Of a stretch of 64,000 nucleotides of DNA, positions 34,577-35,734 are shown in pieces; the stretch's first letter is position 1, and every line of letters begins with the position of its first letter. The notes under the pieces were generated by a model. It was not told the DNA's origin and searched no databases. It saw only the letters and a program-made list of their open reading frames with translations. The stretch lies in the NCBI RefSeq assembly GCF_000337815.1, contig NZ_AOLN01000013.1, positions 186,001 to 250,000 of the forward strand, read 5' to 3'. The DNA comes from Haloferax mucosum ATCC BAA-1512. Its GTDB lineage: Archaea > Halobacteriota > Halobacteria > Halobacteriales > Haloferacaceae. The position numbers and the translations under genes are program-made.

Positions 34577-34586
34577 GGTATATACC
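34577..34586 (+). promoter_or_regulatory. putative TATA box for a non-coding RNA
   Basis: ggtatatacc contains a perfect TATATA (34579-34584) in a locally A/T-rich patch. Initiation would be expected near 34605-34610, just where a chain of GC hairpins begins. No start codon with a plausible frame follows on this strand. Confidence 0.5.
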
Positions 34587-34604
34587 TATGGTCTGAGCAC
34601 AATT

Positions 34605-34775
34605 TTTCGCCGGTAACCAGGGCAGGGGCAACGACCTGGTTCTACCCGGAATACGCCGCGGCGTTCCGGAGTTGGGCCTCTGGTTCGACGCGGCGTTCCT
34701 ACCCAAGGTGCGTGCACGACCCGAACGCTGTTCGGGCATCGGGTGCGCATTCTGATGGAGTTGCAGTCTCCTCAG
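34605..34775 (+). ncRNA. candidate structured non-coding RNA (four hairpins)
   Basis: Downstream of the TATA box at 34579, four hairpins follow one another. A: 34610-34649, with CCGG/CCGG outside ACCAGG/CCTGGT. B: 34653-34696, with ACGCCGCG/CGCGGCGT around a CCGGAG/CTCTGG stem. C: around CCCGAAC-GCT-GTTCGGG (34720-34736). D: CTGATGGAG/CTCCTCAG (34752-34775), whose 3' arm overlaps the stop of the convergent gene at 34772. Neither strand has a convincing protein. It does not show SRP or RNase P core motifs. It could be a guide RNA or regulatory sRNA; the class is not determined. Confidence 0.5.
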
Positions 34776-35734
34776 GGCGACACCCGTGCGATCCATCGCT
34801 CGGGCGCGTCCAATTCCGCATCGGTCGGCAAATTCTCCGGATGTTCCCACACGAGCGATGCGGCGGCGACACCGCGTTCATCCGCGACGTATTCGAAGAA
34901 CCGAGCGCCGCGTTCGTACTGGCGGCGTTTGAGACCGAGACCGAGGACGCGGCGTGCGATTTTCGCAACCGGTCCGCCACCTCGTCGTCGCTCGTCGAGT
35001 TTTCGACGGAGGTCTTCGTAGTCGTCGTCGAATGCGCGGTCCATCAGGAGTTCCGCGTAGCCTTCGACCGCCGTCATCGCCGTGTCGAGTTCGCGGAACG
35101 CGTCGCGGTCGAGGTCACCGTCAATGAGCGCGTCAACGCCCCGTTCCATCCGTGATTCGAGATGCGTCGAGAGCCACGGGGCCGCGCCGAACTCCGCCGC
35201 GTGCGATACTTCGTGGAACGCAATCCAACGCCGGAACCGCGGGTACTCGACGTCCAGCGAGTCGGCGACGCGGCGGATGTTGGGGTGGACGAAATACAGT
35301 CCGTGGTCGTCGTCACCCTCGGCGAGAAGCAACGGGTCGTACTGTCCGAGGACGTTATTTCCTAAAAACGAGAGGACAAACGCGAACGTTCCGGTGTTGA
35401 CGGCGCGTGTGACGCCCGGGAAGACCATCGGTCCGTGTTCCTCGAACGGGCGCATGATACGACGGAACGTCTCGACGTTGGCGTCGATCCAGTGGTGGCG
35501 GTTTTGAACTTCCACGACGTCGGGCACGTCGAATGACACGTCAGCGACAACCGCGAGACGTTCACGGGCATCGCTGACGTCAGCCGCGTAGCCCGTTCGC
35601 TCGGCCGACGATAGGTCGAGCGAACCCGGGTCAGTCGCGGCTTTTGAGGCTTCGGCGACGGCGTCCCAGTCGATCGTACCAGAGCCGGTCGCCGAAGCGT
35701 CCGCAACCGCTCTGACGCTCCGAAAGAGATTCAT
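34772..35734 (-). CDS. DUF2342 zinc metallopeptidase-like protein
   Basis: The 320-residue protein carries HExxH (AFHEVSHAAEF, near residue 172) and a later acidic helix AMTAVEGYAELLMDR with the probable third metal ligand (Glu). This matches DUF2342, also labelled coenzyme F420 biosynthesis-associated, in actinobacteria and haloarchaea. The actual substrate is unknown. ATG 35734 gives MNLFRSVRAVADA. It is convergent with the RNA candidate and divergent from the glyoxalase-fold gene. Confidence 0.88.
   Translation of the reverse strand: MNLFRSVRAVADASATGSGTIDWDAVAEASKAATDPGSLDLSSAERTGYAADVSDARERLAVVADVSFDVPDVVEVQNRHHWIDANVETFRRIMRPFEEHGPMVFPGVTRAVNTGTFAFVLSFLGNNVLGQYDPLLLAEGDDDHGLYFVHPNIRRVADSLDVEYPRFRRWIAFHEVSHAAEFGAAPWLSTHLESRMERGVDALIDGDLDRDAFRELDTAMTAVEGYAELLMDRAFDDDYEDLRRKLDERRRGGGPVAKIARRVLGLGLKRRQYERGARFFEYVADERGVAAASLVWEHPENLPTDAELDAPERWIARVSP

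Follow-up and report, generated by a model that had tools for sequence, protein, structure and literature searches.

A structured RNA of Haloferax with sequence matches to the leaders of two S-layer genes

A conserved element next to a convergent DUF2342 gene

The window analyzed here is a stretch of 64,000 nucleotides from the genome of Haloferax mucosum. Between a small membrane-protein-like ORF and a convergent DUF2342/Zincin_2 gene it holds an element predicted to encode a structured RNA, called the window RNA in the following. Segments of this RNA match two S-layer genes, slg1 and slg2, and a second predicted RNA, R-B; this connection came from loci outside the window. We regard the DUF2342/Zincin_2 gene as a neighbor that probably plays no role in the mechanism proposed below. 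The labels G, C and L denote genomes, contigs and loci. The features are:

34579..34584, + strand: TATA box tatata (from sequence; aligned in 12 species)
34609..34775, + strand: predicted structured window RNA, about 168 nt (covariation; 12 of 15 Haloferax genomes)
34610..34649, + strand: hairpin A with invariant loop GCAGGGGCAAYKA (alignment, covariation, predicted folds)
34620..34628, + strand: GGGCAGGGG in the hairpin A loop, antisense to the slg1 mRNA 5′ end CCCCUGCCC (9 nt perfect, 11 of 11 species)
34653..34696, + strand: hairpin B (both-side changes in 11 of 16 pairs)
34672-34677, + strand: invariant UUGGGC loop of hairpin B
34699..34709, + strand: linker CUACCCAAGGU, which copies the start of the slg2 mRNA and is complementary to predicted R-B
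34709..34749, + strand: hairpin C (both-side changes in 4 of 17 pairs; 91.8% of cells paired)
34752..34775, + strand: hairpin D, overlapping the convergent DUF2342 stop codon (sequence, alignment)
34760..34768, + strand: GUUGCAGUC in hairpin D, antisense to GACUGCAAC of the slg1 mRNA (9 nt perfect, 11 of 11 species)
34772..35734, − strand: convergent DUF2342/Zincin_2 gene (NCBIfam TIGR03883, Pfam PF10103)

A preceding sequence-only reading had proposed a structured RNA candidate with its own promoter at this site. The TATA box on which it relied is fixed in position across 12 species, and the predicted RNA start at 34609 lies 30 nt from the first base of this box. No insertions or deletions occur between box and start in the genus alignment (12 species), and the same spacing of 30–31 nt is seen at both S-layer genes and at R-B. 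Hairpins A, B and D had been placed correctly, whereas the third one (34720-34736) is the tip of the longer hairpin C. The DUF2342 stop codon does fall inside hairpin D, as had been noticed, and conservation beyond about 34775 stems from the DUF2342 coding sequence; the 3′ end of the RNA at this position is provisional and its length approximate. One-base insertions and deletions between orthologs speak against coding, in line with the earlier view that no protein frame is convincing. The earlier reading had also found no match to SRP RNA, RNase P RNA or a tRNA, and a scan of the window with Rfam 15 at the gathering threshold returned four tRNAs only and no match to the window RNA.

Compensatory changes support the fold

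In a comparison with 200 dinucleotide shuffles, none folds as stably as the predicted structure (z −3.22). As the reverse strand is similarly stable (z −3.45), folding energy cannot assign the strand. The covariation check in related genomes that had been suggested was performed on a 144-column core of 12 sequences. Standard pairs occupy 93.6% of cells versus 88.2% in shuffles, with 0 of 500 shuffles as high, and pairing falls to 28.6–36.6% when the partners are slid. Changes on both sides were observed in 16 of 45 pairs versus 8.2 in shuffles, a value reached by 0 of 500; the number of further pair types is unexceptional, being matched by 78 of 500 shuffles. On the + strand, 35 G-U cells were counted versus 23 A-C cells. 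By eye, the outer CUGA/UCAG pairs of hairpin D are partly lost in L003, L005, L007 and L008. Together with the TATA box at its fixed distance, the compensatory changes bear out the candidate: structure and conservation of the element are established, and the reality of a structured RNA at this locus is close to certain. We infer that it is transcribed.

In predicted folds, the hairpin A loop segment is unpaired at 0.81–0.89 and the hairpin D loop at 0.78–0.99. The linker (0.37–0.80) and the R-B seed (0.30–0.54) are partly open, and the first 18 nt of eight folded S-layer leaders are unpaired at 0.46–0.72. Within the window RNA, UUGGG of the hairpin B loop (34672-34676) is complementary to CCCAA of the linker (34701-34705), and a pseudoknot closing the linker is possible; both segments are invariant, so that covariation gives no test of it.

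Distribution of the window RNA

When 98 genomes were searched at the DNA level, 16 had a match. Twelve of these, the genome of the window included, carry the window RNA, and their loci align from the promoter through hairpin D. In three others the match is confined to 30 bases at the end of the DUF2342 coding sequence, and L016, short and located in apparently coding sequence, was discarded as a chance match. With a covariance model, a survey of the family (170 genomes, 28 genera) identified the RNA in 12 of 15 Haloferax and in none of the other 27 genera; the stricter filters of this survey can lose weak relatives. The pattern GGGCAGGGG-N(55-85)-CTACCCAAGG also occurs in 12 of the 170 genomes, all Haloferax (reversed control: 2 of 170), and in a sample of 293 genomes from the order the exact hairpin A pattern was seen in 6, each of them a Haloferax. 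The 20-nt hairpin A pattern also turned up in four IMG/VR contigs; as model R1 matches them over just 17–23 nt at the pattern, with E-values of 0.16–0.25, they were rejected as chance matches.

The Haloferax genomes without the RNA (G001, G003 and G014) have kept the flanking genes, and hairpin D was not seen at their loci (L013-L015). In a DUF2342 tree with midpoint root they form one clade inside the genus (support 100/99), which makes loss the simplest reading.

Two S-layer genes with similar leaders

In the window genome, slg2 scores 1551.6 bits with the NCBIfam model 'ArtA-dependent S-layer glycoprotein', above its cut-off of 1100, and slg1 matches the same model along its length with a score of 708.1, below this cut-off. 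Both genes have the surface-glycoprotein signal and PGF-CTERM. The motif GUACCCC starts 31 nt after the TATA box in slg1 (12 of 12 loci from 11 species) and 30 nt after it in slg2 (11 of 11), and the two mRNAs appear to start alike. The slg1 leader begins with GUACCCCUGCCCAUGG, with ACGG in four species, and the slg2 leader with GUACCCCUACCCAAGG, one base being different in G005.

G005 has the slg1 upstream region twice. The second one, close to where a 17-kb contig ends (C3 around 16264, L055), matches the first over 317 bases, and the coding sequence behind it becomes different shortly past the start codon. This near-identical copy is among the 12 promoter-spacing loci and stands outside the 11-species counts of R-B structure and of pairing given below. 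A further S-layer-type gene with a slg2-type leader was seen in G010 (C5 around 98651, L118; 106 kb contig).

Both slg1 and slg2 are present in 11 of the 12 RNA-bearing Haloferax genomes and in none of the three RNA-less ones. The twelfth RNA-bearing genome, G006, is fragmented into 720 contigs and gave one clear partial S-layer copy and one weak match. The three RNA-less genomes gave weak partial S-layer protein matches (E 5.7e-6 to 8.0e-5) and no leader motif. This co-occurrence is established; since the RNA-less species are a single clade, it counts as one evolutionary event.

Of the 170 genomes of the family, 51 contain the leader pattern TACCCCTRCCCAWGGWG, and they represent 16 of the 28 genera. 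At all nine places inspected in sequence the pattern precedes an S-layer-type signal peptide; six of these places belong to other genera that have one or two copies, and three to G032, G039 and G010. This makes the leader 5′ end older than the window RNA. The occurrence of the 5′ end GUACCCCURCCCAWGG across the family suggests an older leader function that would be independent of the window RNA. The slg1-type 5′ end CCCCUGCCC is also present in three genomes in which the search did not detect the window RNA (G110, G021 and G047); the slg1 5′ end hence did not evolve to fit the RNA.

The linker and a predicted second RNA

Without having been sought, a 24-nt stretch around the linker reappeared in G011, in front of an S-layer gene (E 3.2e-5), and the reciprocal search from G011 returned the window RNA gene (E 5.3e-5). 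In both G000 and G011 the 11-mer CTACCCAAGGT occurs three times: once in the window RNA, once ahead of slg1 and once within the slg2 leader. Its reversed control is as frequent (2 occurrences in G000 and 4 in G011), so that the places are remarkable and their number is not. The 12-mer CCTACCCAWGGT has three matches in G000 versus none for its control, which reaches up to three elsewhere. G010 has five matches; four of them are accounted for by the RNA, the slg1-upstream element and S-layer leaders, and the fifth lies elsewhere.

The element upstream of slg1 was at first read on the same strand, as a shared leader motif. Three features led us to prefer a divergent RNA: the constant spacing of a promoter-like site, the excess of U-G over C-A cells and the complementarity to the slg2 5′ end. 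R-B, as predicted, lies on the strand opposite slg1 and diverges from the slg1 upstream region. The promoter-like site CACAAAGCATWT and its variants are present 30–31 nt before GCGUGC, the predicted R-B start, at 12 of 12 loci. GCGUGC is followed by a (C/A)ACCUUGGGUAGG stretch and then by a hairpin with compensatory changes; the core hairpin shows 6 U-G versus 1 C-A cells, and the whole drawn structure 15 G-U versus 6 A-C cells. R-B is treated as a putative transcript; it is possible that the slg1-upstream element acts at the DNA level.

R-B is complementary to the slg2 5′ end over 12–13 nt in 10 of 11 species, with a G-U interrupting the match in G005. In all 11 species the linker is a perfect complement of R-B over 12–19 nt, and in 10 of them it copies the slg2 5′ end. 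As a control, the real sequence of the window was divided into 2130 overlapping stretches of 120 nt: complements of at least 13 nt to R-B were found in 2, and complements of at least 12 nt to the linker in 0; shuffled slg2 leaders gave complements of at least 13 nt to R-B in 0 of 5000 cases. Of the 11 species, G005 alone has the stronger R-B duplex with slg1 (−22.4 versus −21.1 for slg2); the other 10 favor slg2, often by a margin of just 2–6 kcal/mol. Calculated for isolated segments, duplexes range from −37.0 to −48.5 for linker and R-B, where the segments are longer, and from −21.1 to −27.4 for R-B and slg2. The slg2 leader of most species, for example at L096 and L094, has a further CUACCC, mostly CCUACCC, in the loop of a hairpin GCCCG...CGGGC, which could be a second R-B site.

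Searching the family for CCTACCCAAGG-N(140-170)-TACCCCTGCCCA beside slg1 identified R-B in 13 of 170 genomes, with 0 for the reversed control. These are 11 Haloferax and two members of other genera, G110 and G047; R-B thus seems older, or more widespread, than the window RNA. G021, which has two S-layer leaders with CCCAUGG for CCCAAGG, showed no R-B element within the 330 bases examined. By eye, the R-B-like elements upstream of the slg1-type gene in G110 (L111) and G047 (L114) have UUGGGUAG in the loop of a hairpin, CCGCC[UUGGGUAG]GGCGG, an arrangement that differs from Haloferax R-B.

Two loops are antisense to slg1

The counts of pairing between the window RNA and the S-layer leaders cover 11 species; G006 was left out because no slg1 region turned up in its 720 contigs. 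In every one of the 11 species the hairpin A loop GGGCAGGGG is a perfect 9-nt complement of the slg1 5′ end, and it matches slg2 over 5–6 nt at most, the corresponding duplexes amounting to −22.5 to −22.6 kcal/mol with the slg1 5′ end and −12.9 to −15.9 kcal/mol with that of slg2. Hairpin D contributes GUUGCAGUC, again with 9 nt of perfect complementarity to slg1 in all 11 species and 4–7 nt to slg2. Its target GACUGCAAC begins 19–25 nt and ends 10–16 nt upstream of the slg1 start codon. An upstream AUG overlaps the hairpin D target region of the slg1 leader (L078, L081); it is in frame in G000 and G008 and, judged by length, out of frame in G012 and G004.

Complements of at least 9 nt occur in 10 (hairpin A) and 11 (hairpin D) of the 2130 real stretches and in 75 (A) and 15 (D) of 5000 shuffled slg1 leaders, and both loops found such complements in 0 of 5000. 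Each 9-nt match on its own is hence not rare; what is rare is to find both in a gene to which the linker had already pointed. Since the antisense sites are almost invariant across species, covariation between the RNA and its targets cannot be demonstrated; complementarity above chance is established.

Discussion

We propose that the window RNA is a stand-alone base-pairing sRNA that helps to choose between the two S-layer genes. The loops of hairpins A and D would pair with the 5′ end of the slg1 mRNA and with a site before its start codon, and this pairing would block or destabilize the message. R-B would pair with the slg2 5′ end and repress slg2, while the linker of the window RNA would bind R-B as a sponge and thereby free slg2. 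With the signs as proposed, we give this reading a probability of roughly 0.55; that the window RNA acts on S-layer expression by base pairing at all is likely. A more tentative version, to which we would give somewhat worse than even odds, is a true switch of two mutually antagonistic RNAs, with one of the two S-layers worn per cell: R-B, fired beside slg1, would silence slg2, and the window RNA would silence slg1 and absorb R-B. According to the available text of PMC7921747, both S-layer proteins were detected by proteomics in H. gibbonsii LR2-5, which implies that any repression is incomplete in a population.

The signs of regulation could also be reversed, as the sequence itself gives no sign of effect. 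In such a case the RNA would still pair with the S-layer mRNAs, with opposite or mixed outcome, for instance by protecting the slg1 5′ end from decay; or R-B could be the leader of the neighboring pilin mRNA, the pilin genes lying a few hundred bases off in the direction of R-B. The pairing site just before the slg1 start codon fits repression better, however, and we regard these variants as unlikely. CsrB-type decoys titrate a protein, and the linker CUACCCAAGGU might similarly mimic the slg2 5′ end and sequester a leader-binding protein instead of pairing with R-B. Something should indeed recognize this 5′ end where the RNA was not found, given its presence in 16 of 28 genera, but titration leaves both the two slg1-antisense loops and the antisense element of R-B unexplained, and we consider it decidedly unlikely.

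A box H/ACA or C/D modification guide, an idea of the sequence-only reading, was the first to be followed, as an H. volcanii H/ACA sRNA with two hairpins and a long spacer had been predicted (PMC2584109, in its available text). That RNA is multi-hairpin like the window RNA but is conserved throughout halobacteria and antisense to rRNA, whereas the window RNA is found in one genus, has no Rfam match and, in a search for uninterrupted complements to the 23S rRNA of its own genome, reaches 8 nt at most; the guide reading was dropped on the lack of a 23S match and the narrow distribution, and is very improbable. The same holds for a cis element, i.e., a terminator or antisense of the convergent DUF2342 mRNA, whose stop codon inside hairpin D fits the idea: the same gene order exists without the RNA in three species (L013-L015), there would be no need for a promoter and hairpins A–C, and for the effect of hairpin D on this mRNA that had been suggested, possible as it is, nothing was found in support.

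In the proposed base-pairing role, the window RNA resembles sRNA162 and sRNA154 of Methanosarcina mazei and sRNA132 of H. volcanii, which are described as stand-alone intergenic RNAs with hairpins and conserved single-stranded parts; the trans-acting sRNAs of both organisms likewise reach their targets by base pairing (PMC6560208, available text). According to the same source, sRNA132 lowers the S-layer glycoprotein transcript, among others, and its predicted sites lie within ORFs or the 3′-UTR, unlike those of the window RNA. The two RNAs are distinct, and for H. volcanii a single S-layer protein is described (PMC9973310), 24% identical to that of H. gibbonsii (PMC7921747). What sets the window RNA apart from trans-acting archaeal sRNAs is that two loops match one paralog and a third segment matches a predicted RNA that would target the other.

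Bacterial sRNA sponges are RNAs that copy the target site of another sRNA and absorb that sRNA. The window RNA likewise carries a copy of a target site and could absorb the predicted R-B; it differs in being archaeal and in having additional antisense loops against the opposing gene. In the open-access papers searched we found no earlier report of such an S-layer sRNA, and the published H. mediterranei sRNA list names no S-layer gene in its available text (PMC5852579).

Two S-layer genes per genome, as here, have likewise been described for H. gibbonsii LR2-5 (PMC9973310, PMC7921747) and Halorubrum lacusprofundi (PMC10544981), and in both organisms one of the two S-layers is the main receptor of a tailed virus; the available text of these three papers describes no S-layer regulator. 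In LR2-5, HfgLR_11210 is the essential receptor of HFTV1 and HfgLR_04635 the second S-layer gene; a 16-kb deletion removes most of HfgLR_11210 and also affects the adjacent pilA3 and pilA4, and whether single cells express just one S-layer gene is unclear according to the authors (PMC9973310, available text). Two or three pilin-like ORFs adjoin slg1 on the opposite strand at six of six loci checked, among them that of the H. gibbonsii type strain (L059), and one ORF was confirmed as Pilin_N. With pilin neighbors at both genes, slg1 is by synteny the counterpart of HfgLR_11210, the LR2-5 locus being taken from its published description.

S-layer proteins are the main component of the haloarchaeal cell wall and the receptors of some viruses. 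The RNA probably helps to decide which coat, and hence which virus receptor, a cell wears. Together, the window RNA and R-B offer a concrete and testable mechanism for the choice between two S-layer genes, and would provide an archaeal small RNA with a clear physiological target as well as a candidate archaeal RNA sponge. If the two-RNA switch is true, cells would change between a virus-receptor coat and a non-receptor coat by RNA alone, without DNA rearrangement.
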